From Hydrogenobaculum sp. 3684 (GTDB lineage: Bacteria > Aquificota > Aquificia > Aquificales > Aquificaceae), in contig NC_015557.1 of assembly GCF_000213785.1 (NCBI RefSeq), positions 620,001 to 684,000 of the forward strand: a DNA stretch of 64,000 nt, written 5' to 3'. Made by a program: the position numbers and the translations under genes. Numbering within the stretch: the stretch's first letter is position 1; the number at the start of each line of letters is the position of its first letter. Below, piece by piece: positions 6,329 to 28,482 of the stretch. A model generated the notes under the pieces. The model made no database searches, was not told the DNA's origin, and saw only the letters and a program-made list of their open reading frames with translations.

Positions 6329-6360
6329 TTAACCAAAAATTAAAAATAAAAGTTTAATAT
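6329..6360 (+). promoter_or_regulatory. Degenerate Pho-box-like promoter before the acyltransferase gene
   Basis: TTAACC (6329) and TTAAAA (6340) are spaced 11 bp apart, and TAATAT (6355-6360) begins exactly 9 nt after the second. This is the same geometry as the clearer boxes at 7842, 11854, 14846, 17381 and 21714. The half-sites are the poorest of the set, so this call leans on spacing. The start codon is 6 nt after the -10 box, so the transcript would be leaderless. Confidence 0.4.
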
Positions 6361-6366
6361 AAAGAT

Positions 6367-7152
6367 ATGAAATATGTAAAGTTTTTTTACAAAATACTTG
6401 TTTTCCTAATGCTTTTTATAGCTTTTATTTTAAAATCTCTATATATAGATATCTTTGTTAAAGACCAAAAAGAAAAGAGAAAAGCTTTCTTAAAAAATGC
6501 TTCCTTTTTTTCTAGGCTAGTGATTAAACTCTTCAACATAAATATAAAACAAAACGGCATATATATAAAAGACCAAAATTATATAATAGTGTCAAACCAT
6601 CTTAGTTACATTGATATAGTGGTTCTGAGCGCTTTTATAGAGGCGGTGTTTTTATCCACAAAGGAAGTGCAAGAGACATTTTTGTTTGGACATATAGCAA
6701 AATATGGTGGTGCGATATTCATAGATAGAAAGAACAAAGCAAACATACTTTCTGATATGGAGCTTTTTAAATCTGTTTTAGAAGAGGGTTTTAATGTGGT
6801 GGTGTTTTTAGAGGGCACCACTTCAAACGGTGATGATGTGCTTCCTTTTAAAAGTAGTTTTGTAGAGATTATGCTAAAAGCCCAAAAACCAATATTGCCA
6901 ATATGTATAAAATATAAATCTATAAACGGTAAACCAATAGCCATATCCAATAGAGATTACGTATTTTACTATGGAGATATGGAACTTTTTGAGCATTTTT
7001 TAAGCTTTTTGCTAAATGTAGACAGTATGGAGATTGAGCTTTTCTTCTTAAACCCTTTGTATCAAACGTCTTATCTCAATAGAAAAGAACTAACAAAGAT
7101 ACTATATGAGGATATAAGATCTTGCTATTTGGAAAAACCTATAAGTTTTTAA
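6367..7152 (+). CDS. Lysophospholipid/lyso-ornithine-lipid acyltransferase (PlsC/OlsA family)
   Basis: A 261-residue membrane-associated acyltransferase. It has an N-terminal hydrophobic helix (about residues 8-28), the catalytic HX4D motif in NHLSYID (about residue 79) and an acceptor motif FLEGTTSNGDDVLPFKSSF. The EGTTS-G--VLPF-S form is common in OlsA-like enzymes, which add the second acyl chain to lyso-ornithine lipid, although ordinary PlsC (1-acyl-glycerol-3-phosphate acyltransferase) cannot be excluded. An OlsB-like partner lies at 26012 in the same island, and both have Pho-box-like promoters, which favours a role in phosphorus-free lipid synthesis. It overlaps the next gene by 31 nt. 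Confidence 0.85.
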   Translation: MKYVKFFYKILVFLMLFIAFILKSLYIDIFVKDQKEKRKAFLKNASFFSRLVIKLFNINIKQNGIYIKDQNYIIVSNHLSYIDIVVLSAFIEAVFLSTKEVQETFLFGHIAKYGGAIFIDRKNKANILSDMELFKSVLEEGFNVVVFLEGTTSNGDDVLPFKSSFVEIMLKAQKPILPICIKYKSINGKPIAISNRDYVFYYGDMELFEHFLSFLLNVDSMEIELFFLNPLYQTSYLNRKELTKILYEDIRSCYLEKPISF

Positions 7153-7856
7153 ATATATCAATTCACGATGTTTGCCCTTCAAACTTTGAAAACGTTTTAA
7201 GCTTAAGAAAACTCCTAATAGAAAACGGCATAACCAACATCACTTATCTTCTTATCCCTTTTTACCACGAAAAAGAAACGCTTTTAGATATTAAAAATGA
7301 GGTATTGGAGATTACAACAAACGCCGAGGTTATACTTCATGGATACACTCATATGTCAAGAGATTTTAAGAAATACGACTACCGCAGAATTTTTACCTAC
7401 AAAGAAGCAGAGTTTTTATTGGAAAACAATCTTTCTTATAGGCTTGATAAAGGAATTGAGATGTTGAAAAGCTTAGGTATAACACCAAAGGGTTTTATAG
7501 CACCCGCTTGGCTTTTCAAAAAAGAATTATTACAACTTTTAAAAGAAAAAGGATTTTTATTTACCACTGATAGAAGGTATATATACAATCTTCAAGAAAA
7601 CAAAAAGATATTTTCACCGGTTTTGGCCTTTGGTAGTAGAGGTTATGTAGAAGATATTTCTATTCTTTCTTTTGATAAGATGTTTTTTATGCTAAAAGCC
7701 CTGAACGTTGTAAGGATAGCCCTTCATCCAGTAGATATTAAAAATCCCTCTAAAATTTATAAACTCCTAAAAGTATTGGACTACACAAGAAAAGAACATT
7801 TTCAAATAACTAGTTTATATCATATCATAAAAGCAAAAAACTTAATAAAAAATTAA
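7122..7856 (+). CDS. Polysaccharide deacetylase-like protein (DUF2334 type)
   Basis: A 244-residue protein with a TIM-barrel-like NodB/DUF2334 signature. The conserved Asp lies in ISIHDVCPS near the N-terminus, the metal-ligand His in ILHGYTHMS, and GFIAPAWL and a late LHPVD motif follow. The reaction is probably metal-dependent removal of an acyl group from a sugar, but the substrate is unknown. It starts with TTG at 7122, inside the acyltransferase gene, preceded by GAGG about 10 nt upstream. Overlap with its neighbour suggests translational coupling, and the two flanking functions (acyltransferase, glycosyltransferases) suggest glycolipid metabolism. Confidence 0.75.
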   Translation: MLFGKTYKFLNISIHDVCPSNFENVLSLRKLLIENGITNITYLLIPFYHEKETLLDIKNEVLEITTNAEVILHGYTHMSRDFKKYDYRRIFTYKEAEFLLENNLSYRLDKGIEMLKSLGITPKGFIAPAWLFKKELLQLLKEKGFLFTTDRRYIYNLQENKKIFSPVLAFGSRGYVEDISILSFDKMFFMLKALNVVRIALHPVDIKNPSKIYKLLKVLDYTRKEHFQITSLYHIIKAKNLIKN

Positions 7857-7873
7857 CACATGTGTATTAAATT
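7842..7873 (+). promoter_or_regulatory. Pho-box-like direct repeat with -10 box
   Basis: TTAATA (7842-7847) and TTAACA (7853-7858) are 11 bp apart, and TAAATT (7868-7873) lies 9 nt after the second repeat. The box overlaps the stop of the deacetylase-like gene and precedes the Shine-Dalgarno AGGGAGG of the PHP-glycosyltransferase gene. The repeat takes the place of a -35 element, as in PhoB-activated promoters. Confidence 0.55.
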
Positions 7874-7897
7874 AGATAATAGCTATAGGGAGGTTTT

Positions 7898-10213
7898 ATG
7901 ATAAAAGTAGATTTACATCTTCACTCTCAAGCTTCAAACAGGCCAGGTGGCTACATTTCTGAAAAGCTAAAAATAGGCGAGAGTTACACCAAGCCCAAAA
8001 AGCTCTACGAGACCTTGTCAAATAGAGGGATGACGCTATTTACCATCACAGACCACGATACCATAGACGGATGCCTTGAAATAGCCCATCTTCCCGGTGT
8101 TTTCATATCGGAAGAGATCACTACATATTTTCCAGAGGATAGATGCAAAGTCCACGTTATAGCCATCGATATAAATCAAAAGTATCACGACGATATACAG
8201 CATATAAGAGGAAATATATATGAACTCGTAGATTATCTTCAGTTCAACAATATAATCCATATACTGGCTCACCCCCTTTACGATATGGATGGAAAACTAA
8301 ATAAAACTCATATAGAGAGATTTTTACTTTTATTTGACAACTGGGAAGTACTAAATGGCACAAGGTCAAAGACTTCTTCAATTATTACAAAAAAGATAGC
8401 AAAATCTTACACCAAAAAGGACTTAGAAGATCTTGCAAACAAATACGGCTTTTTTAAAAGAAAAAGAGATTTTATAGCTTTTACCGGCGGATCAGACGAC
8501 CATGGTGGGCTTGATCTTGGTTATGGATATACTATAGCAGAAGGCTCCAGTGTAGAGGATCTCAAGAAAGCCATAGAAAACGGCACCACAAAAGTAGATG
8601 GCTATCATGGAAATCCAAAAAGACTGACACACATGGTGATGAATATAGCAAAAGAGGGCATGAAAAAAAGGTATAACCTTGGAAACCTTGGCTATCTTTT
8701 AGATACACTTTTTGAACAAAAAGACACTACTAAGTATTCGTTTTTGGATTCTATATTGGGTAAAAGTTCTGTGGTTACATTCATAGAAAACGTCATCAAT
8801 TTTAAAGGTATGGTATCGGAAAATCCTCACGAAAACATCTTTCAATTTTTCTCAAACATGCTTCCTTACACGTTAAATCAAATAAAATCTATGAAATCCT
8901 TTGATTTTGATAAGCTAAGCGCTTACATAGGAAGAAGCGTTATATTTTTGGCTCCATATATAGCTTATCTATCTGTCTACAAACAAAGAGCCGATGAGAA
9001 AAACATATCCAAAAGATTTTACAAAGAATTTTTCAATGAAGAACACATTGACGGCAAAGTAGCATATTTTACCGATACATTTTTTGATATAAACGGCGTA
9101 GCTAAAACCACTCAAAAGCTTCTTGATTTGGCCAAAGAAGAGGAGCTAAACATCAAGTTTATAATCTCAGACGAAAGATGTATTGAAGATAGTCATATTA
9201 AAAACTTTAAACCAATGATTTCTTTTGCTTTACCAGAGTATGAGAATATCACCATAAATATACCAAATCTTTTAGAGCTTTTAGATTATGTAGAATCAGA
9301 AAATTTTGATATCGTGTATGCTGCCACCCCAGGGGTTATAGGTATCTACGCCCTTATAATAGCCAAAGTCCTTGGTATTCCTTTTGTATCTGCTTATCAT
9401 ACAGATTTTCCAGAATACGCCTATAGATATACCTCTGAGCCTTATTTTAAATACGCTGCTGAAATGCTTATGAAAACCTTCTACGGTTTGTCAGACAGAG
9501 TGTTGATCCCAAGTTTTTCTTACTATGAAAAGCTTAAAAACTACGGTATAAAAGAGGACAAGCTGGTAATTTTCAAAAGAGGTGTAAACAAGGAAAAATT
9601 TAACCCCATCTTTAGAGATAAGGATTTTTGGAAAAACTTTGACCCCACTTACAGAGGAGAAAGAGTAATTGTCTATATAGGAAGAGTTGCAAAAGAAAAA
9701 GATTTAGACGTGTTTATAGAGGTTTTTGAGCTTTTAAAAGAAGAGAGAAACCTAAAGTTTGCAATAGTAGGAGATGGACCATATAAGTATGAACTTGAAA
9801 AAGTTTATAAAGATAGGATTATGTTTACGGGATTTTTGGAGGGGGAGGATTTATCAAAAGCCTATGCCAGCGCAGATATATTTTTGTTTCCAAGCACCAC
9901 AGAAACCTTTGGAAACGTAGTGTTAGAAGCTATGGCTAGCGGGCTTGTGCCTTTGGTATCTGATAAAGGCGGTGCCAAAGAGCATATAACTCATGGGCAA
10001 AACGGCTTTATAATAAACCAAAACAATCCAGTAGAGTATGCAAACCTTGTAAAAAAACTTTTAGAAGATCATTTCTATTACAAAGAGATAAAACAAAGAG
10101 CTATAGATTATGCCCATAGCTTAGATGAGAGAGAGCTTTTATTGGAGATGATAAACTTGTTATCTTTTAACAAAGTAAGGAGTATAGAGTTTTCAGAAGA
10201 AAGCGTTGCATGA
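7898..10213 (+). CDS. PHP phosphoesterase-GT4 glycosyltransferase fusion
   Basis: A 771-residue fusion. Residues 1-240 are a PHP domain with the metal-binding motifs HLHSQAS, TITDHDTIDG, a His in ILAHPLYD and GSDDHGG. Residues about 390-760 are a GT4 (GT-B) glycosyltransferase with IGRVAKEKD, VGDGPYKYEL and the nucleotide-sugar motif STTETFGNVVLEAMASG, followed by GGAKEH. The GT part resembles enzymes that glycosylate lipids using GDP- or UDP-sugars. The PHP part could hydrolyse a phosphate ester of the substrate or product. The start ATG follows AGGGAGG. Its stop overlaps the next GT4 gene by ATGA, so the two enzymes are made together. The Pho-like box upstream suggests use under phosphate limitation, for example in phosphate-free glycolipid synthesis. 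Confidence 0.85.
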   Translation: MIKVDLHLHSQASNRPGGYISEKLKIGESYTKPKKLYETLSNRGMTLFTITDHDTIDGCLEIAHLPGVFISEEITTYFPEDRCKVHVIAIDINQKYHDDIQHIRGNIYELVDYLQFNNIIHILAHPLYDMDGKLNKTHIERFLLLFDNWEVLNGTRSKTSSIITKKIAKSYTKKDLEDLANKYGFFKRKRDFIAFTGGSDDHGGLDLGYGYTIAEGSSVEDLKKAIENGTTKVDGYHGNPKRLTHMVMNIAKEGMKKRYNLGNLGYLLDTLFEQKDTTKYSFLDSILGKSSVVTFIENVINFKGMVSENPHENIFQFFSNMLPYTLNQIKSMKSFDFDKLSAYIGRSVIFLAPYIAYLSVYKQRADEKNISKRFYKEFFNEEHIDGKVAYFTDTFFDINGVAKTTQKLLDLAKEEELNIKFIISDERCIEDSHIKNFKPMISFALPEYENITINIPNLLELLDYVESENFDIVYAATPGVIGIYALIIAKVLGIPFVSAYHTDFPEYAYRYTSEPYFKYAAEMLMKTFYGLSDRVLIPSFSYYEKLKNYGIKEDKLVIFKRGVNKEKFNPIFRDKDFWKNFDPTYRGERVIVYIGRVAKEKDLDVFIEVFELLKEERNLKFAIVGDGPYKYELEKVYKDRIMFTGFLEGEDLSKAYASADIFLFPSTTETFGNVVLEAMASGLVPLVSDKGGAKEHITHGQNGFIINQNNPVEYANLVKKLLEDHFYYKEIKQRAIDYAHSLDERELLLEMINLLSFNKVRSIEFSEESVA

Positions 10214-11346
10214 AACTTTTAGATATAACGCATTTTTATTCAGATAAAAGCGGTGGTATAAAAACCTATATAAACAACAAGATAGAGTATTTTAAGGACA
10301 AAGATATTGAGCATGTTCTGATAGTGCCTGGCAAAAAAGATAATATTAATTATATAAACCATAGCAAGATATATCAAATCAAATCCCCTTACATGTTGGT
10401 TTGGAAACAGTATAGGCTTCTTGTCAACCATCAAAAGATAGCAAACATTATCCAATACGAAAAACCAGATATCGTAGAAATAGGATCGTTATTTTTACTA
10501 CCATCTTTTATAAAAAAATTAAAAGAAAAGCTTAATTTTAGGATGATTGGTTTTTTTCATTCTAACTTGGAGAAAAGTCTATCAAACATTCTCAAACTAA
10601 ACAAAGAAGATAGTGTAGTATCAAAGATGACCAGAAAATATATCTACAAAGCCTACAGCGATATGGATTTGATAATAGCTCCTTCTTTTTATGTAAAAGA
10701 CTATCTAAATACTTTGGGCTTATACAACGTAGAGGTGGTTTATCATGGCATAGATGTTGGGTTTTTTGAAAACCAAGCACCAGATAAAGACCTTCAAAAC
10801 GCTTTAAAAGGTAAAATAGCGCTTATATATGTGGGAAGGTTTTCCAAAGATAAAAACTTTTTAGAGCTTTTAGATATATTTAAAACAGTATATAGCTTAG
10901 ATAACAGATTTCATCTAATTTTAGTAGGGGATGGACCAGACAAAAAGCATATAAACAAGATCCTTGATAGGGGTTTTACGGTTTTTGATTATATAAAAGA
11001 TAAAAAAACCCTGGCAGGGCTTTACAAGGCATCTGATATATTTGTCAGCGCTTCCAAATCCGATACCTTTGGTTATTCTATAATAGAAGCCCAGGCCTGC
11101 GGGCTTCCAGTGGTGGCTTACAAGGATGTATCGTTTCCAGAGATTGTTTATTATAAAAATTATCTTGCCTCTTCAAAAGAAGAGTTTATAAAAAATCTAC
11201 TCATTTTATCAAAAACATACCAACATCTTGATAAAAGCCAAATAAAAGACTTTGTAAAAGAGCGATTTTCTCTGGAAAAGAATATGGAGGAGCTGTTTTT
11301 CATATACAAGTCCTTAAGTGGTTTGTATCAAAAGCGCTTCGCTTGA
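10210..11346 (+). CDS. GT4 family glycosyltransferase
   Basis: A 378-residue GT-B fold glycosyltransferase. The N-terminal acceptor domain starts with DITHFYSDKSGGIKTYI, and the C-terminal donor domain contains YVGRFSKDKN, VGDGPDKKHI and the E-x7-E motif in SDTFGYSIIEAQACGLP. It begins within the ATGA overlap with the PHP-GT gene, so the two are probably sequential enzymes on one lipid- or saccharide-linked substrate. There is no signal peptide or membrane helix. The tail overlaps a decayed reading frame on the opposite strand. Confidence 0.9.
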   Translation: MKLLDITHFYSDKSGGIKTYINNKIEYFKDKDIEHVLIVPGKKDNINYINHSKIYQIKSPYMLVWKQYRLLVNHQKIANIIQYEKPDIVEIGSLFLLPSFIKKLKEKLNFRMIGFFHSNLEKSLSNILKLNKEDSVVSKMTRKYIYKAYSDMDLIIAPSFYVKDYLNTLGLYNVEVVYHGIDVGFFENQAPDKDLQNALKGKIALIYVGRFSKDKNFLELLDIFKTVYSLDNRFHLILVGDGPDKKHINKILDRGFTVFDYIKDKKTLAGLYKASDIFVSASKSDTFGYSIIEAQACGLPVVAYKDVSFPEIVYYKNYLASSKEEFIKNLLILSKTYQHLDKSQIKDFVKERFSLEKNMEELFFIYKSLSGLYQKRFA

Positions 11347-11452
11347 CTCTTCTATAACAGGTTTTAGAAGTTTTTTGGACTCTTTTTTAAGCTCTGCCAA
11401 CCTTTTTGATATCTCTTGAGAACTCTTGTACTAGGGCTTGTTCAAGTTGCAT
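11314..11452 (-). pseudogene. Frameshifted small coiled-coil protein gene
   Basis: On the minus strand an ATG at 11452 overlaps the stop of the gene at 11442-11729 and opens MQLEQALVQE. It then runs into a stop after 21 codons. If one T is removed just after the GAG codon, the frame continues as SQEISKRLAELKKESKK, then LLKPVIEESSEA, to a stop at 11314-11316. This looks like a short helical protein with a single-base insertion, lying partly inside the end of the glycosyltransferase gene. It could also be chance. Confidence 0.35.
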
Positions 11453-11729
11453 ACTGGCGATTATCTACAATCGTTTGCTCTAAAATCTCTATGGCTTTTG
11501 GGGCTAATATGTGTGAAAGCTTTTCCCTAATACTATTAGGTATAATAATTTCCTCGTATGCTCTTTGGTACTTTTGGTCTTTGCTAAACTTCTCGGCTTT
11601 AAAATAAAACAGTGTATTGTAATTTTTATTATAAGTGATCATATGGTACATCCCATTATCAAATATCGATAACAAAAGCTCTTCACCCTCTTCCAACAAA
11701 TGCTTAAGTTCATCCAAACTTTTAACCAT
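11442..11729 (-). CDS. Hypothetical protein
   Basis: A 95-residue soluble protein with an acidic helical N-terminus (MVKSLDELKHLLEEGEELLL), a central beta-rich stretch with several tyrosines, and a helical C-terminus. I do not recognise the family. The start ATG is preceded by AAGGAGG at good spacing, which supports it being real. It is transcribed opposite to its neighbours. Its stop overlaps the start of a small frameshifted coiled-coil frame, so the pair may be a decayed two-gene unit. Confidence 0.6.
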   Translation of the reverse strand: MVKSLDELKHLLEEGEELLLSIFDNGMYHMITYNKNYNTLFYFKAEKFSKDQKYQRAYEEIIIPNSIREKLSHILAPKAIEILEQTIVDNRQYAT

Positions 11730-11853
11730 GGCACTGCACCTCCTTTGAATTTTAAATTGGTAAAGTTAATTTTTGGTTAAGATGGCTAAAATATTTTGTG
11801 ATTGAGCCGATAAACATTGTTTTTGCTTTGCAAAATAAAGGTATAAAAATTTT

Positions 11854-11895
11854 TTAACAAATATTAATAAAAAATTAACATAATGAAAATAAAAT
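11854..11895 (+). promoter_or_regulatory. Pho-box-like triple repeat with -10 box
   Basis: Three half-sites, TTAACA (11854), TTAATA (11864) and TTAACA (11875), are spaced 10 and 11 bp apart. TAAAAT (11890-11895) begins 9 nt after the last. The AGGGAGG ribosome site and the start of the first TonB-dependent receptor follow. Confidence 0.6.
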
Positions 11896-11918
11896 GAAAT
11901 TATTAGGGAGGTAGATTT

Positions 11919-14108
11919 ATGAAGATTAGATTAGCTTGTACTTTTAGTTTAGCAATGGTAAGCTTTGCATTTGCAGAGACACCGCTTCTAAATGTAGAAG
12001 TCAATGCACATAAAACCAAAGAAAACACCCCAAGCAAATTAGTAAAAACTACAAAATATACAAAAGCCAAGGAAAAAGTGGAAAGACCTTTGATAAACAA
12101 GCTTACATCTTCTGGTGGTGGAAACGTTTTTCAAGCTCTTGAGCTTCTTCCTTCAGTAAACTTCCAAACTCAAGATCCTTACGGTTTATCTGGAGGAGAG
12201 ATAACTATAAGAGGTTTCAACAACAACCAAATAGGATTGACAATAGACGGCATGCCACTTATGGACTCAGGAAACTACGCTCTATATCCAAATGAATATA
12301 TGGATTTGGAAAACTTAGAAGCTGAAACTATCACAAGAGGTGGCACTGGAAAAGCAAGCCCACTCTACTCAGATTTAGGTGGTAGAATAGCTTTAAGAAC
12401 GATACCACCAAAAGATAAGCTTGGCTTAGAGTTAGAGCAAATATTTGGCTCTTATGCTTTTGAAAAATCTTTTGTAAGACTGGATAGCGGATTATTGCCC
12501 CTTATGAACTCAAAGTTTTTTATATCATTTTCTCATGCTCAAGCTGACAAGTGGAAAGGCCCAGGTCAAAATCCTAAGTTTAGAGACCACGTAACTTTTG
12601 GCTGGGTAGCAAATTTAAATAGACTACATATAGATTTTTACATGGACGAAAACGATCAGGTAAATTACTATTATAGAGGTCTTACCTACCAACAAGCCCA
12701 AAACTTGAGTGCTAACAAAGATTTTGATTACAACGGTAGTCTCACTGGTAATCCAGCCGTAGATGCATACTATTACAAATTTTTTCATAACCCATATCAA
12801 AACTATGAATTTAGAGGAGATATAAGCTTTGATGTAAGTAAAAATTTCTATGTCGATTTAAAGCCTTATTACTGGAGAGGTAGAGGGGGAGGATCTTCTG
12901 CATATTACAATAGCAGGGGTAACTACATAAATTACGGTATTTCATACAATTATACAAAAAGACCTGGTTTTATAGCCCAAGCGGTTTTCCATAAAAATCC
13001 TTTCAAAGTAACAGCTGGTTTTTGGTATGAAAGGGCAGATCTTGAAAACTTTAGCACAAACTTTAAGCTAAACAACTTCCAAAACGGCAATTACAACACA
13101 ACTTTTAACTACTACGGATATATAGATAAAGTGTACACCACCACTCAAACACCCTATGTTATATTTGATCTAAAAGATTTTCATCGTTTTGATGTTGAAC
13201 TAGGTTTAAAATACGCTCAAGTAAAAAGAGATTATAAAGAGTTTAATACCAACAACTTACCATATCTTCCAGACGATGATATATACAACTATCCTCTTAG
13301 TATAATCTCAGATGAATCTTATGTAAAAACTTATAGAAAATTTTTACCAAGTATCAACATAGGTTATAAGATAAATAGATACCTTTATCCATATTTCAAC
13401 TATGCAAAAAACTTCCAAGTTCCAGAAAGTTATCAAGGTTCACCACCAAAAGGAACCACTACACAAGAAATAATCAACAACTTATCACCAGAAGAAGCTG
13501 ATTCTTACGATGCTGGTGTTAATATAACACTTGGCAAATTTATAATAAAACCAGACATCTACTATGTAGATTACAAAAATAAGATCGAATACTTTCCAGA
13601 GCCAAACAACCCAAATATTACATATCCCCAAAACGTAGGTAAAGTAAAAGCCTACGGCGGTGAACTGGAAGTCTTAGGTAACCTTATAAAAAACCTAACT
13701 TTAATAAGCTCTTTTTCTTACAATAGGGCAAAATTTGACAACGGATACTATTCTGGCAAAACCTTTCTAAACGTGGCTGGAAACCAGCTTCCAAATACAC
13801 CTAAGTATATGGGAAAACTCGGCTTAGACTACAAGATTTATGGATTTGATATATTCCCTTATCTAATATATGAAGGCCCAAGATACGGCGATTCAATAAA
13901 TAATCAAGAAATCCCCCCATACGTAGTGGCAAATCTAAATGTATCAAGAGACTTTAATATATTTGGTAAAAAGTTTTACGGCTTTTTAAACGTATTAAAC
14001 CTTACCAACAAAACATATATAGGTTATATAGGCGCTGGTGATACTTCTGGTACTTACTATGTAGCGCCACCTATAACAGTATCTGCTGGTTTGAGGGCAT
14101 ACTTTTAA
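11919..14108 (+). CDS. TonB-dependent outer-membrane receptor
   Basis: A 729-residue outer-membrane gated channel. It has a signal peptide (MKIRLACTFSLAMVSFAFAE), a plug domain with the usual ITIRGFNNNQIGLTIDGMP and GGTGKASPLYSDLGGRI motifs (about residues 60-160), and then a beta-barrel ending in a C-terminal Phe (SAGLRAYF), as needed for BAM-mediated insertion. The ligand is not readable from sequence. Pho-like boxes here and before the tonB operon, plus a secreted phosphoesterase encoded nearby, make a phosphorus-containing ligand a reasonable guess. The start ATG follows AGGGAGG. Confidence 0.92.
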   Translation: MKIRLACTFSLAMVSFAFAETPLLNVEVNAHKTKENTPSKLVKTTKYTKAKEKVERPLINKLTSSGGGNVFQALELLPSVNFQTQDPYGLSGGEITIRGFNNNQIGLTIDGMPLMDSGNYALYPNEYMDLENLEAETITRGGTGKASPLYSDLGGRIALRTIPPKDKLGLELEQIFGSYAFEKSFVRLDSGLLPLMNSKFFISFSHAQADKWKGPGQNPKFRDHVTFGWVANLNRLHIDFYMDENDQVNYYYRGLTYQQAQNLSANKDFDYNGSLTGNPAVDAYYYKFFHNPYQNYEFRGDISFDVSKNFYVDLKPYYWRGRGGGSSAYYNSRGNYINYGISYNYTKRPGFIAQAVFHKNPFKVTAGFWYERADLENFSTNFKLNNFQNGNYNTTFNYYGYIDKVYTTTQTPYVIFDLKDFHRFDVELGLKYAQVKRDYKEFNTNNLPYLPDDDIYNYPLSIISDESYVKTYRKFLPSINIGYKINRYLYPYFNYAKNFQVPESYQGSPPKGTTTQEIINNLSPEEADSYDAGVNITLGKFIIKPDIYYVDYKNKIEYFPEPNNPNITYPQNVGKVKAYGGELEVLGNLIKNLTLISSFSYNRAKFDNGYYSGKTFLNVAGNQLPNTPKYMGKLGLDYKIYGFDIFPYLIYEGPRYGDSINNQEIPPYVVANLNVSRDFNIFGKKFYGFLNVLNLTNKTYIGYIGAGDTSGTYYVAPPITVSAGLRAYF

Positions 14109-14125
14109 AGGCTTCTTTTTCATGC
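14103..14125 (+). repeat. 23-bp direct repeat at the end of receptor gene 1 (copy 1)
   Basis: The last codon and stop of the receptor gene, followed by AGGCTTCTTTTTCATGC, recur exactly at 17328-17350 after the second receptor gene. The two copies bracket the mntA/hepT remnant and receptor 2. Both are followed by G-rich DNA. Confidence 0.85.
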
Positions 14126-14146
14126 GGGCTTAAGGGGAGGGGAGGG
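14126..14146 (+). other. Potential G-quadruplex
   Basis: Four G-runs on the + strand (GGG, GGGG, GGGG, GGG) with loops of 5, 1 and 1 nt sit directly after the 23-bp repeat. Such a tract is conspicuous in this AT-rich sequence. It could act as a 3' end or stability element for the receptor mRNA. No function is shown. Confidence 0.45.
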
Positions 14147-14173
14147 AAGATAAAATACTCAAAACGATTATAC

Positions 14174-14201
14174 TTGACATAAAAATATTTTTATTTAAAC
14201 T
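14174..14201 (+). promoter_or_regulatory. Promoter for mntA-like gene
   Basis: TTGACA at 14174-14179 and TAAACT at 14196-14201 with a 16-nt spacer. The ATG follows 7 nt after the -10 box, which implies a leaderless message. Confidence 0.5.
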
Positions 14202-14208
14202 ATTTTAT

Positions 14209-14538
14209 ATGCAAGCTATAAAAGAGCAAAATTTAAAAGAGCAAGTATTTGAGTTTTTAAAAACGCATAAAGATGAATTATATGAGAAATTTGGAGTATT
14301 GCATGGAGGGTTTTTTGGCTCTGTGGCAAAAGGAAAAGAGAAGGAAAACAGCGATATAGACATATATGTAGAGATTGAATACTCAAGGATAGATCTTAAT
14401 GCTTATTTAGAATTAATTGAGTATCTTGAAAAGGCTTTTAAAAGAAAAGTAGATATAATAACCAGCAACCAGTTAAAGCACATGAGGAATCATTATAAGC
14501 AAAACATCATTAAAAATGAAATAATTCATGTCTTCTGA
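14209..14538 (+). CDS. MNT-domain nucleotidyltransferase antitoxin (MntA-like)
   Basis: A 109-residue minimal nucleotidyltransferase. The catalytic motif GSVAKGKEKENSDIDIYV has the GS-x(n)-DxD arrangement that binds nucleotide and metal, and a third acidic residue lies in KVDIIT. In MntA/HepT pairs this protein AMPylates, and so neutralises, a HEPN RNase toxin. The partner HEPN gene follows with its ATG inside this gene, but it is broken, so this antitoxin is probably an orphan. Confidence 0.85.
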   Translation: MQAIKEQNLKEQVFEFLKTHKDELYEKFGVLHGGFFGSVAKGKEKENSDIDIYVEIEYSRIDLNAYLELIEYLEKAFKRKVDIITSNQLKHMRNHYKQNIIKNEIIHVF

Positions 14539-14813
14539 AAAAGAGAGGCTATCTAATAGACATTTTGCAAACCTGTGAGCTTATAGTAAAACATACACAA
14601 AATATTTCTTTTGATGCTTTTATGAAAAACCAAGAAAAACAAGCAGCCATAATATATTGGATTGAATGTAATAAAATGACTGGTATGAGAGACGTATTAA
14701 TTCACAACTATGCCGATGTAGATTATCATATAGTGTGGAAAGTAGCAACCGTTGATATCCCTGATTTAATGGAGCAGATAAAGCAAGTTTTAAACGATGA
14801 GTTTAAACATTAA
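14528..14813 (+). pseudogene. Broken HEPN toxin gene (HepT-like)
   Basis: The ATG at 14528 overlaps the end of the MNT gene and starts MSSEKERL, but the frame then shifts. Two bases appear to be missing, after which LIDILQTCELIVKHTQ continues in another frame to 14813. The HEPN RX4H motif survives in MRDVLIHNY. About 25 residues normally found between the AIIYWIE helix and the W-x-KMTGMR segment are also missing. Both lesions suggest loss of function. A downstream start at about 14565 could still yield an 82-residue fragment. Confidence 0.75.
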
Positions 14814-14845
14814 GCTCATTTTATACTTTAAACACAAGAAACTCC

Positions 14846-14899
14846 TTAACAGAAAATTAAACATTTCTTAATAATATTTTAACATTAATCAATTATAAT
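14846..14899 (+). promoter_or_regulatory. Pho-box-like array of four repeats with -10 box
   Basis: Half-sites TTAACA (14846), TTAAAC (14857), TTAATA (14868) and TTAACA (14879) are each exactly 11 bp apart. A perfect TATAAT (14894-14899) begins 9 nt after the last. This is the best example in the window of two tandem PhoB/PhoP-type boxes. It drives the second TonB-dependent receptor. Confidence 0.7.
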
Positions 14900-14933
14900 C
14901 TGTGCAGGTAAGAAATTGAATAGGAGGAAGAAT

Positions 14934-17333
14934 ATGCTTACCAAAAAGTTAAAAACTATACTGCTTAGCTTAGCTGTTTTTAGCGGTGGAGTATCTTTTG
15001 CTCAATCTAATTCAGCTCCAGTTTATAACATAGGACAGATCAACGTAGGAGCTCAACAAGCATCTTCTAAACAGAAGAAAATTGAAAAAAGATATCATAG
15101 AGCTACCTTAAAACTAAAAGATAAAACGATATTCGAATCTGCGCAAACTATAAAGGTTATAAAAAAAGACCAACTTAAAGTAGCTGGACCTACTGGTAGC
15201 GTTTCCCAGGTGTTATCTTACGCACCAGGTGTTACTATAAGTAGTTTTGGAGAAAATGGCTCTAGGAAATTTTCCATAGTTTTAAACGGCATAAGGCAAG
15301 GATGGGGAGGTTTTACTAACGCCACAAGTATAGACAATGGATCTTTAGGAGTCACTTTTGACGGTGTTCCACTAGTCAACCCTTCAACGGGCTTATGGCA
15401 ATCCAATCAAATACCGCAATTAGATTTAATCCAAGGTATAAGGGTTATCTATGGGCCAGGTAATCCAGAATCTAGATGGTACAACGATTTAGGGGGACAA
15501 ATACAGTTTATACCACTACAACCATCAAAATATATGGGTGGTTTCTTTGATTTATCGTACGGAAGCTTTAACTCAAGGAATTTATTTGTAGCTTTTAACA
15601 CTGGTGATATCAAAGGTTGGAGAACAGTTGTAGCAGCAGGCTGGGGAGCTGATAACAGCTATGTAACCTCTGTGGACGGATTTAGATATCCATCTCACAA
15701 CTACGCTTATTACATCAAAACTAAAAAAGTTTTTGCAGATGGAGACGGCGATTTTTCTATAGGTGCTTACGCAGCGCAGTCTTACTACTGGAGAAACCCA
15801 CCGATACCAGTATCTCCACAGCAAGGTCTTACAGCAGATGGAACACCAAACACACCCCTTTTAAGTCAAAGCACCACTGGTTTTTATAGTGCACCTGATT
15901 TTTCAGTGCTTCACAAGTTAGACCAAAACGGCTTAGATCTTGTATATTCAAAACTAAACCTAAATTTCGATAAAAATACAAAATTTCACAACATGATATG
16001 GTTTAGATATGGCTTTAGAAGACATAATCATTATAATGATTATCCTCTTGGTTCTAATCCAGGAAATCTATATGAGTATAATAATCCATACGATAAAGTA
16101 TTTGGCGATAAACTATGGTTTGAACTAAACAACATATACCATAACAATATAGCTTTTGGTGGATACTACTTAGTAAGTAATTATAACTCAAGAAACGCTT
16201 TTTGGAATCCTTCAGTAGAACTAGCACCAGGTATTTATGGAAGTGCCACTGTACCAAATGCAAAATATAGAAGTGACTATTGGAACCAAACAGATATAGC
16301 AAGCTTTGCAGAAGACACTATAAAATTTCACAAATTTAAATTTACTCCTGGTATAAGATGGGTAGATTTTATAACAGATTATAACAACGAAACCTGCACA
16401 GATTTTCCTTTAGCTTGCCAATTAAATCCTAAGAGAAACGAAGCTAAACTTCCTTCTGCTCACACAAACTTTACTAAATTAGAGCCTTCTTTTGATGCAA
16501 ATTATGAAATTATTGATGGTATATCAATATATGGAAACTATGCCGAGACATATAAAGTGCCAGAAAACGGAGGTGGTGGAGGCCCATATCAAAAAGTACC
16601 AGCTTCAGAACTACATCTAGAAAAATCACAGGAATATCAAATAGGTTTTAAGGTGTTAAAACAAAACTTAAAGTATGCTAATAAAATATTTGCAGGTGTC
16701 AACTATTTTCATATGATATTTTCACATTTATTTTTTCCCATATACGACTCTAATGGTAATTATCTAGGAGACGGTGCTGGTACATCAGTTTACAACGGTG
16801 TAAATCTATTTGCAGATTATTATCCTATAAAACATCTTTATCTATGGACAAACGCCACTTTTGAGGATGCCAAATTCCCAAATTACACATTCACAAACGC
16901 TAATGGTAATATTACATCTGCTAGTGACCTACCAGTTTCTTATGTACCACATACATTGTTTAATTTAGATGTAAGCTATTCTTATCTTATAAATTATCTA
17001 CATGGCATAATAACAAAGCCTTCTGTCTGGTTCCAATACGTAGGCTCTCAATCTATGTTTAACAACAACACCGGTCTTCCGGATACTCAGAAAATGCCAA
17101 GTTACAATACTTTGAATGCCTCTATATCTTTTGATATACTAAACACCGCAAGAAGCATTCCTTATTTTAAAGATATTCAGCTTACTCTAACGGCTTTAAA
17201 CATAACAAACAAAAAGTACAATGAATTTGAATACATATCAAGCGGTGGATATTACAACGTTAATGAAAGCTATATACAAGCTTATCCAGGAGCTCCATTT
17301 ACAGTTTATGGCTCTATAAAAGCAGATTTTTAA
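14934..17333 (+). CDS. TonB-dependent outer-membrane receptor
   Basis: A receptor of about 799 residues. It has a signal peptide (MLTKKLKTILLSLAVFSGG...SFAQ), a possible TonB box in VYNIGQINVGA, a plug with QVLSYAPGV, GVTFDGVPLV and VIYGPGNPESRW...GGQIQF, and a long barrel ending in a terminal Phe (GSIKADF). I placed the start at the ATG that follows AGGAGG by 6 nt; a TTG 18 nt upstream is in frame but is crossed by the ribosome site. The four-repeat Pho-like box upstream suggests strong regulation. It differs clearly from receptor 1, so the two probably take up different ligands. Confidence 0.92.
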   Translation: MLTKKLKTILLSLAVFSGGVSFAQSNSAPVYNIGQINVGAQQASSKQKKIEKRYHRATLKLKDKTIFESAQTIKVIKKDQLKVAGPTGSVSQVLSYAPGVTISSFGENGSRKFSIVLNGIRQGWGGFTNATSIDNGSLGVTFDGVPLVNPSTGLWQSNQIPQLDLIQGIRVIYGPGNPESRWYNDLGGQIQFIPLQPSKYMGGFFDLSYGSFNSRNLFVAFNTGDIKGWRTVVAAGWGADNSYVTSVDGFRYPSHNYAYYIKTKKVFADGDGDFSIGAYAAQSYYWRNPPIPVSPQQGLTADGTPNTPLLSQSTTGFYSAPDFSVLHKLDQNGLDLVYSKLNLNFDKNTKFHNMIWFRYGFRRHNHYNDYPLGSNPGNLYEYNNPYDKVFGDKLWFELNNIYHNNIAFGGYYLVSNYNSRNAFWNPSVELAPGIYGSATVPNAKYRSDYWNQTDIASFAEDTIKFHKFKFTPGIRWVDFITDYNNETCTDFPLACQLNPKRNEAKLPSAHTNFTKLEPSFDANYEIIDGISIYGNYAETYKVPENGGGGGPYQKVPASELHLEKSQEYQIGFKVLKQNLKYANKIFAGVNYFHMIFSHLFFPIYDSNGNYLGDGAGTSVYNGVNLFADYYPIKHLYLWTNATFEDAKFPNYTFTNANGNITSASDLPVSYVPHTLFNLDVSYSYLINYLHGIITKPSVWFQYVGSQSMFNNNTGLPDTQKMPSYNTLNASISFDILNTARSIPYFKDIQLTLTALNITNKKYNEFEYISSGGYYNVNESYIQAYPGAPFTVYGSIKADF

Positions 17334-17350
17334 AGGCTTCTTTTTCATGC
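17328..17350 (+). repeat. 23-bp direct repeat at the end of receptor gene 2 (copy 2)
   Basis: Identical to 14103-14125 and again including the last Phe codon and stop of a receptor gene. It is followed by a G-rich stretch with three GGG runs. Confidence 0.85.
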
Positions 17351-17380
17351 AAATATGAGGGATAAGAGGGATGGGATTTC

Positions 17381-17412
17381 TTAACAGAAAATTAACAATG
17401 AAAATGTATAAT
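17381..17412 (+). promoter_or_regulatory. Pho-box-like repeat with -10 box before exbB
   Basis: Two perfect TTAACA half-sites (17381, 17392) are 11 bp apart, and a perfect TATAAT (17407-17412) begins 9 nt later. The AAAGGAGG ribosome site of exbB follows. The repeat TTAACAGAAAATTAAACA-like core is shared with the box at 14846. Confidence 0.7.
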
Positions 17413-17430
17413 GTGGCAAAGGAGGTTTAG

Positions 17431-17868
17431 ATGGACTTAGAGATGTTTCATAAAGCGGTATTTGTTATAATGTTTGTGATATTTGTAATTTCTAATTATG
17501 TGATAGTTTATAAGTTTATTCAAATAAGTAAAATAAAAAAAGAGATAAACAGATCTTCAGAAAAAGAAGCTTACAAACTTATAACTAAGTTAAAAGATAG
17601 TATGTGGATATTAGATTTTGGAATTACATCAGGACCTTTGCTAGGGCTTCTTGGTAGTATATTGGCCCTTATAGAATCCTTTGCAAATTTAGCAGAAAGG
17701 GGTATTTCTAATCCAGTAGTTATAAGCAAATCCATAGGTTTTGCGCTTGTGGCTACAGCTTTTGGTATATGTTTAGCTCTTTGGGATTTGGTGTTTTATA
17801 AGATGTTAAACGATATGATAAGAAATATAAGAGAAGAGGCTAAACTAATCTTTGCAGGAGGTAATTGA
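17431..17868 (+). CDS. exbB: ExbB/TolQ-type proton channel subunit
   Basis: A 145-residue member of the MotA/TolQ/ExbB family with three membrane segments: about residues 9-30, then 62-85 (GPLLGLLGSILALIESF) and 100-125. The conserved GLLGS and the small-residue-rich third helix form the proton channel with ExbD. It is shorter than E. coli ExbB (about 244 residues), as is usual for compact ExbB proteins. It is the first gene of exbB-exbD-tonB-phosphoesterase and energises the nearby receptors. Confidence 0.9.
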   Translation: MDLEMFHKAVFVIMFVIFVISNYVIVYKFIQISKIKKEINRSSEKEAYKLITKLKDSMWILDFGITSGPLLGLLGSILALIESFANLAERGISNPVVISKSIGFALVATAFGICLALWDLVFYKMLNDMIRNIREEAKLIFAGGN

Positions 17869-17869
17869 C

Positions 17870-18295
17870 ATGGCCAATCTTTGGGAAGAAGAACATCAAG
17901 AGAAAGAAGAAATACATATAGTGCCAATGATAGATGTGATGTTGTTTTTGCTAACATTTTTTGTGCTTTTGACGATAAACTCTATATCTTTAAATGGAAA
18001 GCAATTAAGTGTACCAGCATCTAAATACACTGATCCATTACCAAGAGTAGAAAACGTAAAAATTTATCTGACAAAAAATAATCTAGTTTACGTGGGTTCA
18101 AACAAGTATCCATACAGCTTAAATGATTTAACATCTTATCTTCAAAATATCAAGAAGCAGGTCAAAGATTCTAAAGACATAAATGTATATATAGTTCCAG
18201 ATAAAGATGCAAATGTACAAACCTTAGTAAATGTAATGGATCACATTCAGCAGGCTGGTATCTCAAATATATCTGTTGTAAATAAGCAATCATGA
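17870..18295 (+). CDS. exbD: ExbD/TolR-type biopolymer transport protein
   Basis: About 141 residues. A short cytoplasmic N-terminus is followed by one helix with the essential Asp in IVPMIDVMLFLLTFFVLL, and then a periplasmic domain ending in VMDHIQQAGISNISVV, typical of ExbD. I chose the ATG at 17870, which has AGGAGG 8 nt before it; an in-frame TTG at 17852 lies inside exbB. It overlaps tonB by 4 nt. Confidence 0.92.
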   Translation: MANLWEEEHQEKEEIHIVPMIDVMLFLLTFFVLLTINSISLNGKQLSVPASKYTDPLPRVENVKIYLTKNNLVYVGSNKYPYSLNDLTSYLQNIKKQVKDSKDINVYIVPDKDANVQTLVNVMDHIQQAGISNISVVNKQS

Positions 18296-19062
18296 CTAGC
18301 GTTTATTTTGAAGATAGAAAGTATAAAATAATATCATTTATATTAGCGATTGTATTTTCTTCTATAACCATGTTTCTAATAACGTTTCTTAAAATAGATA
18401 TATATAAATACAAAATGCCTAAAGAAATAAAAATACATCTAGTAAACACAATTCGGTTAAACAAGGAAAAAAATGTAACAATAGAGCACAAAGCAGTTGA
18501 GAAAAAAATCGTAATGCCTAAAGAGAAAAAAATTATAAAACATCACATAGTTAAACATGTAGAAAAACCAAAACCTGTTGAAAAACCTCATGTTGAAAAA
18601 CCAATTGCTTCTAAAATACCACCACCAGAACCGCAACCTTATCAAATAAAAAAACCTGTCAAACAGAGAGTTACCACAAAAACTACCTATCAAAATATGA
18701 ATGAATCTAATAAAAAAATATCAAAAGCCCCTCAGCCAATACCTGAAAAAGCTGCAACTTCAACAAAACCTACAAAAAATCAGATAGCTTTATATCTTTC
18801 TAAGGTTTATGAAATAATAGAAGAACACAAGCATTATCCTTCCTTAGCAAAAGAAAGAGGAGATTCTGGCACAGTTTATATAAGAGTCAATATATCAGCT
18901 AGTGGTAAAGTAGATCATGTTAGCTTATTAAACTCCAGCGGTAGTTTTATATTAGATGAATATACAAAAGAACTAATAAAACATTTAAAATTTCCAGCCC
19001 CACCAAAAGGCCCTATAACGTTTGATTTAAAGGTACATTATAGACTCAACGAAGGAGATTAG
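18292..19062 (+). CDS. tonB: TonB energy-transducing protein
   Basis: A 256-residue protein that links the ExbBD motor to outer-membrane receptors. The N-terminal helix (about residues 14-32) anchors it in the inner membrane. Residues about 65-165 form a Lys/Pro-rich periplasm-spanning rod with repeated EKP and PPPEPQP elements. The C-terminal domain (about 175-256) has the TonB signature: YPSLAKERGDSGTVYIRV, a central VSLLNSSG and KFPAPP near the end. It starts in the ATGA overlap with exbD and is followed 2 nt later by the phosphoesterase gene. Confidence 0.93.
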   Translation: MTSVYFEDRKYKIISFILAIVFSSITMFLITFLKIDIYKYKMPKEIKIHLVNTIRLNKEKNVTIEHKAVEKKIVMPKEKKIIKHHIVKHVEKPKPVEKPHVEKPIASKIPPPEPQPYQIKKPVKQRVTTKTTYQNMNESNKKISKAPQPIPEKAATSTKPTKNQIALYLSKVYEIIEEHKHYPSLAKERGDSGTVYIRVNISASGKVDHVSLLNSSGSFILDEYTKELIKHLKFPAPPKGPITFDLKVHYRLNEGD

Positions 19063-19064
19063 GT

Positions 19065-21686
19065 ATGAAAAAGTTTTTGCTTGCTATTAGCTTGTTTGCT
19101 GGTGTAGGATTTGCAAAGGATGTAGGAAATCATCTTACCCCCTGGGGGTGGGAGATAAAACCAGTAGGGAAATATGTCTATACCTACAACTTTCCTACAA
19201 ACGTAGTAGTGTCTAAAAACCATATTTTTGTACTGACAAACGGCGCTACCTCTTATCAGACTATTACTATGTACAACAAAAATCTGCAAGAACTTTTTCA
19301 AGTAAAAGCCTGGAAAGACGAGGTAAATCCATCCAAAGATCCAAGGTATTTATTCTTACCCTATCAAAGTTTTTATCAAGGTATGTATTACAAAGACCAC
19401 AAGCTTTATGTAGCTGGCGGATTTTCTGACAATGTCTTGGTGTTTAATGTTTATCCTAAAAGCCTTAAACTGGAAAAAAAGATATACCTTCATTACAAAA
19501 GCTTTCCTAAAAATCAATATCCATACATATATCAAGGTTTTAGATACGATTTGAGACACTTTTATCCTGACGCTGTTGTAAAAGGAGATAAATATATATA
19601 CGCTACTGGGCTTTTATCAAATGCAATAGCAAGAATAGATGAAAACGATAAAATAAAATATTTAAACGTAGGTGCTTATCCATACGATATAGCGCTATCT
19701 CCAAAATATATATTTGTTAGCCTTTGGGGAGACAATGCCATAGCTGTAATAGATAGAAATACATTTCAATTTATCAAAAAAATATACGTAGGTAAAAAGC
19801 TTAGCAAATATAGTGAATCTGCCGGTGTTCATCCTACAAACTTATATTATAAAAACGATAAACTATATGTAAGCTTGGCAAATAGCGGCAAAATAGCAAT
19901 CATAGATACCAGAAACTTCAAGGTTTTGGGCTTTTTAAAAGATAAACTTTTTAAAGATCAAGAACCAGGTTCTTATCCAAACGCTTTGTTTGAAAAAGAT
20001 GGTAAGCTTTTTGTATCAAGCGCTGGCACAAACTCTATAAATATTTTTGATATTAAAAGCAAAAAACTAATAGGTGCCATACCAACAGGATGGTACCCAA
20101 GCGCTATGAAAGTAGGAGATAACAATATCTACGTTGTCTCAGCAAAAGGTCTTGGCTCTTTTCCAAACACAAAATATCAATGGGTTGGTATTTTGATGCC
20201 TGGTATATTGCAAAAAATCTCTTTAAAAGATATAGACAAAAACATTAAAAACTATACAAAAGATCTGTTTACATATGATAAGTTTGACGATATCAAAAAA
20301 CAAGATAAACTAGTTAAATTTTTAAGAAAGCATATAAAGTATGTGGTTTTTATACTAAGAGAAAACAAAACCTTTGACGAGGATCTTGGTACTTACAAAA
20401 GAGCTGGCAAATGGGCAGATCCAAATTTAGCTTTATACACTAAAAAAGAGCTTCCAAATTTGTTTAATTTTGCAGATCACTACGTTTTGATGGCAAACTT
20501 TTATGCGGACGGCGAAGTAACAGCCCAAGCACACCAATGGACTACTGGGGCAAGTGTATCTGATTTTGTAGAAAGAACATGGCAAGAGTATTACTCTGGA
20601 AGGGGTTTAGTTGAAAATCCAGGCTGGACACAAGCTCTTACCTTTGGCTACGCTACTGGCTGGGCTGGTATGCCAAACGGTGTAGACAATCCTTTTGCTA
20701 TATACGAAGATTTAGATAAGCTTGGGAAATGGGCAAATCCTTGGATATCTTACCCTTACAAGCTTTATCTATTTAACAATCTATTGGCTCATCATGTAAG
20801 TTTTGAAGATTTTGGAGAGTTTGTATCAAGAAATAGATGGGGTGATATACCAAAAGCTATGAAGCCACATATAGCTTACTCGTTCCCTGGGTGGAACCGC
20901 TTTATCTTAGACACGTTTAGAGCTGACGTTGCAATAAAATGGTTTAAAACCCACAAGATGCCAAAATTTTCCTACATATGGCTTCCAGATGATCACACTG
21001 CTGGGCTTCATCCATGCTATTACACACCCCAGTATTACGTAGCTAACAGCGACTATGCTACCGCAAAAATTGTAGAATATCTATCTCATACGCCTTACTG
21101 GAAGCATATGGCTATATTTATCAACGAAGACGATGCCCAATCTGGAGCAGATCACATAGACGCTCATAGAACTTTTGCAGTGGTCTTAAGCCCATGGGTA
21201 AAACAAGGTTATATATCCACAAAGCATTACTCTCAAATAAACATAATAAAAACAATAGAAAAAATACTTGGAATACCACCTATGTCTATTTTTGACCAAA
21301 CTACACCAGTTATATCTGGCATATGGACAGATAAACCAAACTTTAGCCCTATAAAAGCCATAAAACCAGATGTAAATGTGGCTTTCAATCCAGGATACTG
21401 CAACAACTATACGCTATTAAGACGAGAAGCTGGCGCTACAGGACATTACGTAAACAAAAAATGGTTAGAAAAACACATGAAAAAGGATTCCAAAGATAGC
21501 TCTTATATTCCATCTTCTAAAAATCTATATACACCAACATCTTTGTTAAAAGTGTCTGGTTTTGAGCAGTTTAAACAATCAGCCATTGCTACTAAAGGCT
21601 ATTCTGGTTATAAAAAGATGCTTAGGTATATAAAAACCCTTGCCAAAGAACAAAATAAAAGTATCTGGGCTTTTATAAGTAAATGA
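19065..21686 (+). CDS. Secreted beta-propeller/phosphoesterase fusion protein
   Basis: An 873-residue exported protein with a signal peptide (MKKFLLAISLFAGVGFAKD). The N-terminal half (about residues 30-390) is a YncE-like beta-propeller with repeated YDIALSPKYIFVSLWGDN-type blades. The C-terminal half (about 420-780) matches the phosphoesterase family that includes acid phosphatase and phospholipase C. It has the metal-binding ENKTFDEDLG near residue 434 and LPDDHTAGLHP, INEDDAQSGADHIDAHR and PWVKQGYIS further on. Such proteins are often annotated as bifunctional YncE/alkaline phosphatase-like. It probably releases phosphate from organic esters outside the inner membrane. It is the last gene of the Pho-box-driven exbB-exbD-tonB operon, which supports a phosphate-scavenging role. 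Confidence 0.85.
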   Translation: MKKFLLAISLFAGVGFAKDVGNHLTPWGWEIKPVGKYVYTYNFPTNVVVSKNHIFVLTNGATSYQTITMYNKNLQELFQVKAWKDEVNPSKDPRYLFLPYQSFYQGMYYKDHKLYVAGGFSDNVLVFNVYPKSLKLEKKIYLHYKSFPKNQYPYIYQGFRYDLRHFYPDAVVKGDKYIYATGLLSNAIARIDENDKIKYLNVGAYPYDIALSPKYIFVSLWGDNAIAVIDRNTFQFIKKIYVGKKLSKYSESAGVHPTNLYYKNDKLYVSLANSGKIAIIDTRNFKVLGFLKDKLFKDQEPGSYPNALFEKDGKLFVSSAGTNSINIFDIKSKKLIGAIPTGWYPSAMKVGDNNIYVVSAKGLGSFPNTKYQWVGILMPGILQKISLKDIDKNIKNYTKDLFTYDKFDDIKKQDKLVKFLRKHIKYVVFILRENKTFDEDLGTYKRAGKWADPNLALYTKKELPNLFNFADHYVLMANFYADGEVTAQAHQWTTGASVSDFVERTWQEYYSGRGLVENPGWTQALTFGYATGWAGMPNGVDNPFAIYEDLDKLGKWANPWISYPYKLYLFNNLLAHHVSFEDFGEFVSRNRWGDIPKAMKPHIAYSFPGWNRFILDTFRADVAIKWFKTHKMPKFSYIWLPDDHTAGLHPCYYTPQYYVANSDYATAKIVEYLSHTPYWKHMAIFINEDDAQSGADHIDAHRTFAVVLSPWVKQGYISTKHYSQINIIKTIEKILGIPPMSIFDQTTPVISGIWTDKPNFSPIKAIKPDVNVAFNPGYCNNYTLLRREAGATGHYVNKKWLEKHMKKDSKDSSYIPSSKNLYTPTSLLKVSGFEQFKQSAIATKGYSGYKKMLRYIKTLAKEQNKSIWAFISK

Positions 21687-21713
21687 TATATATCATAGTA
21701 AAAATCAAAAAAA

Positions 21714-21745
21714 TTAACGGAATCTTAACAAAAAACCTTTAAGAT
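21714..21745 (+). promoter_or_regulatory. Pho-box-like repeat with -10 box before the ATPase/OlsB operon
   Basis: TTAACG (21714) and TTAACA (21725) are 11 bp apart, and TAAGAT (21740-21745) begins 9 nt later. Transcription would then begin at about 21752, practically at the ATG at 21753. This is the only evident promoter for the six or seven closely packed genes that end with the OlsB-like gene. Confidence 0.6.
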
Positions 21746-21752
21746 GTTAGAT

Positions 21753-22130
21753 ATGAAAGATGTAGAGATAGTGAGCGCAAGAAACGGCAGGGTTAGGTTA
21801 AGAACAAGCTTTTTATATCAAAAAGAAGTGTGCAAAATTCTTGAGAACAATTTGAAAAACGCTTGTGTGGTCAGCAATCAAAACACCAACAGCATCACGA
21901 TAACCTGCAAAAGCGATTACTTCAATCAAAGCGATATAAAAAGCGCTATAACATCTTTGTTAAAAGAAAAAGGATTTAATGTAAAAGAAAGGGGCAACGA
22001 CATAAACGTTTTATTTGCCTTCCAGTTGATGTTAAATGTAGGAGGGGGACTGGAGGGCATCGCTTTTAATGTAGCCAAAGATGTTGTACTAGATAGGATG
22101 GGATTAGGAGCTATTTCATACTTCGTATGA
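21753..22130 (+). CDS. HMA-like small protein without CxxC
   Basis: About 125 residues. The N-terminal 75 residues have the beta-alpha-beta-beta-alpha-beta pattern of heavy-metal-associated (HMA_2-like) domains, opening with IVSARNGRVRLRTSFL, but have no CxxC metal site. A Gly-rich, weakly hydrophobic tail (LMLNVGGGLEGIAFNVA) follows. The same GR(I/V)R(L/V) opening recurs in the next protein and in the N-terminus of the P-type ATPase of this operon, so it may be a detached ATPase regulatory domain. I prefer the ATG at 21753 over 21744 because the latter overlaps the predicted -10 box. Its stop overlaps the next gene (ATGA). Confidence 0.65.
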   Translation: MKDVEIVSARNGRVRLRTSFLYQKEVCKILENNLKNACVVSNQNTNSITITCKSDYFNQSDIKSAITSLLKEKGFNVKERGNDINVLFAFQLMLNVGGGLEGIAFNVAKDVVLDRMGLGAISYFV

Positions 22131-28427: not shown

Positions 28428-28482
28428 ACAAATAATATTATAAGCCTGAAAAAAAATTTTGTTGTGTGCGATAATATAATAT

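Follow-up and report, generated by a model that had tools for sequence, protein, structure and literature searches.

The 64,000-nucleotide window that was analysed, bases 620001-684000 of the single-contig 1,552,775-base genome of Hydrogenobaculum sp. 3684, a hot-spring member of the Aquificaceae (window G+C approximately 35%), carries genes for TonB-dependent receptors with an ExbB-ExbD-TonB energiser, a phosphoesterase-family protein and enzymes resembling those of lipid synthesis (Table 1), and the promoters of these genes contain short phased repeats that we predict to be PHO boxes of a phosphate-starvation regulon. Positions are those of the window unless marked as genome. The strict form of the promoter pattern, TTAAYNNNNNNTTAACANNNNNNNNNTANNNT (TTAA(C/T)N-N5-TTAACA-N9-TANNNT), was matched exactly five times in the window, at 7842, 11864, 14868, 17381 and 21714, where 0.02 matches were expected from dinucleotide shuffles and none of the shuffles reached five. 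When TTAA(C/T)(A/G)...TTAACA pairs in the window were counted over start-to-start distances of 6-30 base pairs (bp), five were spaced by 11 bp and a single one by 21 bp, with no pair at the remaining distances, and each of the six TTAA(C/T)-N6-TTAAC pairs had a TANNNT hexamer exactly 9 nucleotides (nt) to its 3' side. The promoter of the 14934 gene has four half-sites in phase (14846, 14857, 14868 and 14879), that of the 11919 gene has two plus a third 10 bp farther 5', and the remaining promoters have two.

A first-pass annotation of this DNA had claimed six such promoters with their -10 hexamers, and all six are present, including the one before 6367 that it had graded as weak and that is indeed degenerate (TTAACC-N5-TTAAAA). 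A seventh site, which it overlooked, is divergent, lying on the minus strand at 11749-11780 (TTAACCAAAAATTAACTTTACCAATTTAAAAT), and has a counterpart in the related genome G003. In the sequence-based definition of the PHO box the units are 11-nt direct repeats (PMC4415409), and PhoB sites in Escherichia coli lie 10 bp 5' of the -10 hexamer (PMC1906773). The units found here are likewise direct repeats with a period of 11 nt, and they stand at a fixed short distance 5' of the -10 hexamer, where they replace the -35 element.

A whole-genome scan had been proposed to see whether pstSCAB and phoU carry the motif, and both do. Exact matches to the pattern number nine in the 1.55-Mb genome, five of them in the window and four outside it, and the reversed control has none; when up to one mismatch was allowed there were 18 matches, as against one for the control. 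One of the four outside sites (genome 11665) precedes phoU, a gene that scores above the PhoU cut-off, and another (genome 1524632; TTAACG-AAAAA-TTAACA-N9-TATAAT) precedes a gene that exceeds the PstS cut-off and is followed by pstC, pstA and pstB, so that a box lies 5' of both the pst operon and phoU. The other two lie 5' of a porin-like gene (genome 974100) and 5' of a 91-amino-acid (aa) open reading frame (ORF) ahead of an Nramp transporter (genome 459997). At the last locus (genome 459997-460530; L017, L025) the 91-aa ORF, of no known family, lies between two box-like sites, the second of which is directly 5' of the Nramp-type metal transporter.

A covariance model built from sequence only, with the five window sites as its sole training set, was run on the whole genome. 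Its best non-training matches were the porin (E=0.006), pstS (E=0.007) and phoU (E=0.04) sites, which ranked among the training sites or immediately below them, the next match following after a gap at E=0.65. One further match above the gap, at genome 201308, scores through its half-sites, but a Shine-Dalgarno sequence follows and there is no -10, and it was taken as chance. The porin (L022) and pstS (L023) promoters are almost identical, leaders included, across the 68 bp that run from the box to the start codon; it is as though the promoter of one gene had been duplicated in front of the other. Neither a solved structural relative nor a phosphate-porin Pfam match was found for the porin, and it is because of its promoter alone that a phosphate role is suggested for it.

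The box is conserved among relatives. In most of the Aquificaceae genera examined a TTAACA-N5-TTAACA pair lies 5' of pstS at about the same distance, while in G010 and G020 the pstS box is farther 5' or behind a small gene. When the pattern was made slightly more stringent (TTAACNNNNNNTTAACANNNNNNNNNTANNNT), it was matched 51 times in 41 related genomes and never in its reversed form, and when the gap between half-sites was varied over thirteen lengths in these relatives the 11-bp phase gave the 51 matches and any other at most nine. Across 136 genomes of the phylum approximately 160 matches were counted, the majority from the Aquificaceae-level family f1, and the control gave none. The genes directly 3' of the boxes examined in relatives include pstS, phoU, two PhoX alkaline phosphatases, a type I phosphodiesterase, a major facilitator superfamily protein most like phosphate:H+ symporters, a TonB receptor whose plug sequence resembles that of 11919, and the small gene with a heavy-metal-associated (HMA)-like product found here at 21753. 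An AT-rich genome and a TTAA-like half-site might suggest that such sites arise by chance or from base composition, with no regulatory meaning. This explanation is refuted by the genome-wide counts and retains next to no probability: shuffling predicts almost nothing, the reversed pattern is absent where the true one abounds, spacings other than 11 bp are rare, and pstS boxes persist in relatives whose pstS upstream DNA reaches approximately 50% GC.

Several -10-like hexamers end only 5-7 nt 5' of an ATG, in the window at 6355-6367, 21740-21753, 28427-28483 and 43329 and before phoU at genome 11691-11704, and the short gap is also seen in related genomes. Leaderless mRNAs are therefore predicted, including those of phoU and the HMA-like gene, and the 21753 transcript is probably of this kind. 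A one-mismatch box 5' of a glyceraldehyde-3-phosphate dehydrogenase gene (genome 399184-399215; L024) also has a leaderless arrangement.

Searches of the genome found four full regulators of the OmpR family (1175219, 312850, 1056919 and 1154639), and the first, at genome 1175219-1175905 between sucC-like and rimM-like genes, has PhoB as its best NCBIfam match (243 bits). Its orthologues adjoin pst in G024 and G009 and lie within the phoU-pst neighbourhood in G038, and among the OmpR-family regulators of this genome it is the sole reciprocal best match of these pst-adjacent proteins. The recognition-helix stretch DRTVDVHIKHLRDKLG is identical in three of the four regulators compared (the 1175219-1175905 protein and those of G024, G009 and G038). 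The same three pst neighbourhoods also encode a soluble PAS-like histidine kinase, whose best match here, at genome 733290-734204, is closest to the PnpS and PhoR models (approximately 210 bits) and has no hydrophobic segment in a Kyte-Doolittle scan. We infer that the 1175219-1175905 protein is the likely regulator of the boxes and that the 733290-734204 protein is the candidate PhoR-like kinase of the system. The kinase adjacent to phoU (genome 12326-14122) was also considered for the PhoR role, but it is a membrane-bound protein with only distant similarity to the kinases beside pst, and 733290-734204 was preferred.

Several observations weigh against a phosphate regulon built on these two proteins. 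The regulator, at 243 bits, falls short of the 296 bits set for the PhoB equivalog, and the kinase of the PhoR cut-offs; both genes are orphans in this genome; G023, a 91% complete genome, has a pstS box but no good regulator match; genomes of family f3 retain the regulator, mostly without the strict form of the box; and the boxed Nramp transporter locus (genome 459997 and 460492) has no evident phosphate role. A rival proposal is that another of the OmpR-family regulators (312850, 1056919 or 1154639) binds the boxes; the regulon would then be genuine but would not respond to phosphate only, and metal or envelope stress, for instance, could be a trigger. Genes for metal transport do lie behind boxes (P-type ATPase, cation diffusion facilitator and Nramp), and tandem sites with an 11-bp period are a general feature of OmpR-family regulators. 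However, boxes stand at pstS and phoU in this genome, and in relatives they stand before these two genes and also before PhoX and a gene resembling phosphate symporters, and 1175219 is the only one of the four that the pst-adjacent regulators have as their best match; we thus consider control by another family member improbable.

The arrangement can be compared with known phosphate switches. The E. coli PHO box has, as here, at least two direct repeats with an 11-nt period approximately 10 bp 5' of the -10 hexamer, controls pst and phosphate-scavenging genes, and is bound head-to-tail by an OmpR-family regulator, PhoB (PMC1906773, PMC4415409). It differs in its half-site, which is CTGTCAT there and TTAACA here, and in that regulator and kinase genes are separate here and neither adjoins pst. 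The SphR box of Synechocystis shares the 11-bp phase, with tandem copies of the 8-bp unit CTTAACCT separated by linkers of 3 bp at sphX, pst and phoA, but at least three repeats are described there (PMC1906773), whereas here there are usually two, with four at 14934. The TTAACA half-site resembles the cyanobacterial SphR repeat most closely, more than the E. coli unit. The PhoP box of Bacillus subtilis has TTAACA-like half-sites approximately 5 bp apart, and the Aquificota code also resembles this one. B. subtilis differs in lacking PhoU (PMC13170248), which is present here, and no teichoic-acid targets were seen.

The TTAA cores also have the spacing of the CtrA box of Caulobacter, and it could be asked whether the sites are CtrA-type boxes, TTAA-N7-TTAA, of the kind known from Alphaproteobacteria. 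The phase and the -35 placement are the same, with TTAA-N7-TTAA found here at -35, and CtrA sites are placed at -35 in most activated promoters (PMC11264516). The regulator subfamily and the targets differ, however: against the CtrA model, which has a cut-off of 350 bits, the candidate regulator reaches 140, compared with 243 for PhoB, and the targets are phosphate genes and not those for pili, flagella or the cell cycle. A CtrA-type identity is therefore highly improbable.

Given that the same switch stands before the core genes of phosphate uptake, both in this genome and in those of many relatives, a phosphate-starvation regulon is predicted, and we hold it very probable that the repeats are the PHO boxes of a PhoB-type regulon. 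The PhoB/PhoP-box reading of the first-pass annotation gains support from the motif's occurrence above chance, from the boxes at pstS and phoU here and at most of the Aquificaceae pstS genes examined, and from the candidate regulator and PhoR-like kinase, and it stands with small corrections. The boxes would be tandem 11-bp sites for a PhoB-type response regulator, and the bound dimer would substitute for the -35 element before a sigma-70-type -10 hexamer; from the spacing, and counting from the expected start, the last half-site lies at approximately -27 to -22 and the preceding one at approximately -38 to -33, which is near the placement of PhoB sites in E. coli promoters. When phosphate is scarce, the PhoR-like kinase would phosphorylate the regulator, which would then switch on pstSCAB, phoU, the porin, the two TonB receptors together with the ExbBD-TonB energiser that belongs to them, the probably secreted phosphoesterase and the enzymes resembling those of glycolipid and ornithine-lipid synthesis. 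The expected direction is accordingly activation on phosphate starvation.

Table 1. Predicted promoter sites and genes of the boxed region (window coordinates)
Feature	Position	Strand	Remarks
Degenerate PHO-box-like site	6329..6360	+	TTAACC-N5-TTAAAA-N9-TAATAT; -10 end to ATG = 6 nt
OlsA/PlsC-like acyltransferase	6367..7152	+	Behind degenerate site
DUF2334 protein	7122..7856	+	Closest NCBIfam N-acetylglucosamine (GlcNAc)-phosphatidylglycerol deacetylase, 112 bits (below cut-off, 280)
Predicted PHO box + -10	7842..7873	+	TTAATA-N5-TTAACA-N9-TAAATT; 5' of 7898 gene
Glycosyltransferase (GT4), PHP-like N-terminal region	7898..10213	+	Similar gene order near pst in G014
Glycosyltransferase	10210..11346	+	Closest NCBIfam GlcNAc-phosphatidylglycerol synthase, 196 bits (below cut-off, 480)
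95-aa ORF, no assigned function	11442..11729	-	Behind divergent site
Divergent PHO-box-like site	11749..11780	-	TTAACC-N5-TTAACT-N9-TAAAAT
Predicted PHO box + -10	11864..11895	+	TTAATA-N5-TTAACA-N9-TAAAAT; extra TTAACA 10 bp 5'
TonB-dependent receptor 1	11919..14108	+	G018 receptor with similar plug sequence also boxed 5'
Predicted PHO box, 4 in-phase half-sites + TATAAT	14846..14899	+	Longest in window
TonB-dependent receptor 2	14934..17333	+	Behind four-half-site box
Predicted PHO box + -10	17381..17412	+	TTAACA-N5-TTAACA-N9-TATAAT
ExbB	17431..17868	+	
ExbD	17852..18295	+	
TonB	18292..19062	+	
Phosphoesterase-family protein (PF04185), beta-propeller repeats	19065..21686	+	Signal-peptide-like N-terminus
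Predicted PHO box + -10	21714..21745	+	TTAACG-N5-TTAACA-N9-TAAGAT; -10 end to ATG = 7 nt
Small protein, weak heavy-metal-associated-domain match	21753..22130	+	First gene, probable operon
P-type ATPase, HMA_2 domain	23027..25138	+	Probable 21753 operon
Cation diffusion facilitator	25131..25991	+	Probable 21753 operon
OlsB-like N-acyltransferase	26012..26812	+	Probable end of 21753 operon

Among the genes behind the window sites, the phosphoesterase at 19065 is probably secreted. The first-pass annotation had placed an OlsB-like enzyme under the motif; the box-adjacent acyltransferase at 6367 proved closest to OlsA/1-acylglycerol-3-phosphate acyltransferases, and an OlsB-like gene does exist, as the last gene of the probable operon starting at 21753. 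In G014 the deacetylase-like gene and both glycosyltransferase genes lie within approximately 10 kb of a boxed pst operon, which supports a phosphate role for the 7122, 7898 and 10210 genes. Lipids may be remodelled or replaced under phosphate starvation by these glycosyltransferases and the acyltransferases, with the caveat that glucosaminyl-phosphatidylglycerol itself still contains phosphate.

Behind the divergent box, G003 has approximately 3 kb of extra DNA (L141:2708-5826, compared with window 11350-11740) that is missing from this genome and that encodes two proteins, one of 406 aa and the other of the EAL-GGDEF type. Between the two TonB receptors, at 14209-14810, a nucleotidyltransferase-like ORF is followed by a HEPN-like frame, by eye resembling an MntA/HepT toxin-antitoxin pair. 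In other genera a PHO box lies 5' of an operon that includes genes for a small Ras/Arf-like GTPase and for an EAL-GGDEF protein (L144:9415-13848), a candidate for an unexpected phosphate target, and at L116 and L117 boxes lie 5' of similar small proteins of no known family.

A 2026 survey of 926 genomes identified neither PhoP nor PhoR in Aquificales and allowed that divergent homologues were possibly missed (PMC13170248); the present findings suggest that its gap in Aquificales reflects divergent copies of this kind. The open papers searched held no relevant PHO-box account for Aquificales or Aquificota, and an earlier description elsewhere is possible; as far as these searches show, this would be the first prediction in Aquificota of a system of an established kind. 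More tentatively, the TTAACA-type PHO box may be the more ancient form of the bacterial phosphate switch, common to Aquificota, Firmicutes and Cyanobacteria, which in Aquificota would have a soluble PhoR without membrane segments, in Hydrogenobaculum a regulator and kinase uncoupled from pst, and as added targets TonB-dependent uptake, metal transport and glycolipid and ornithine-lipid synthesis. With a binding code, its targets and good candidates for both regulators in hand, the question of phosphate regulation in Aquificota becomes testable, and the boxes offer hints to the functions of uncharacterised TonB receptors, the phosphoesterase and the lipid enzymes.

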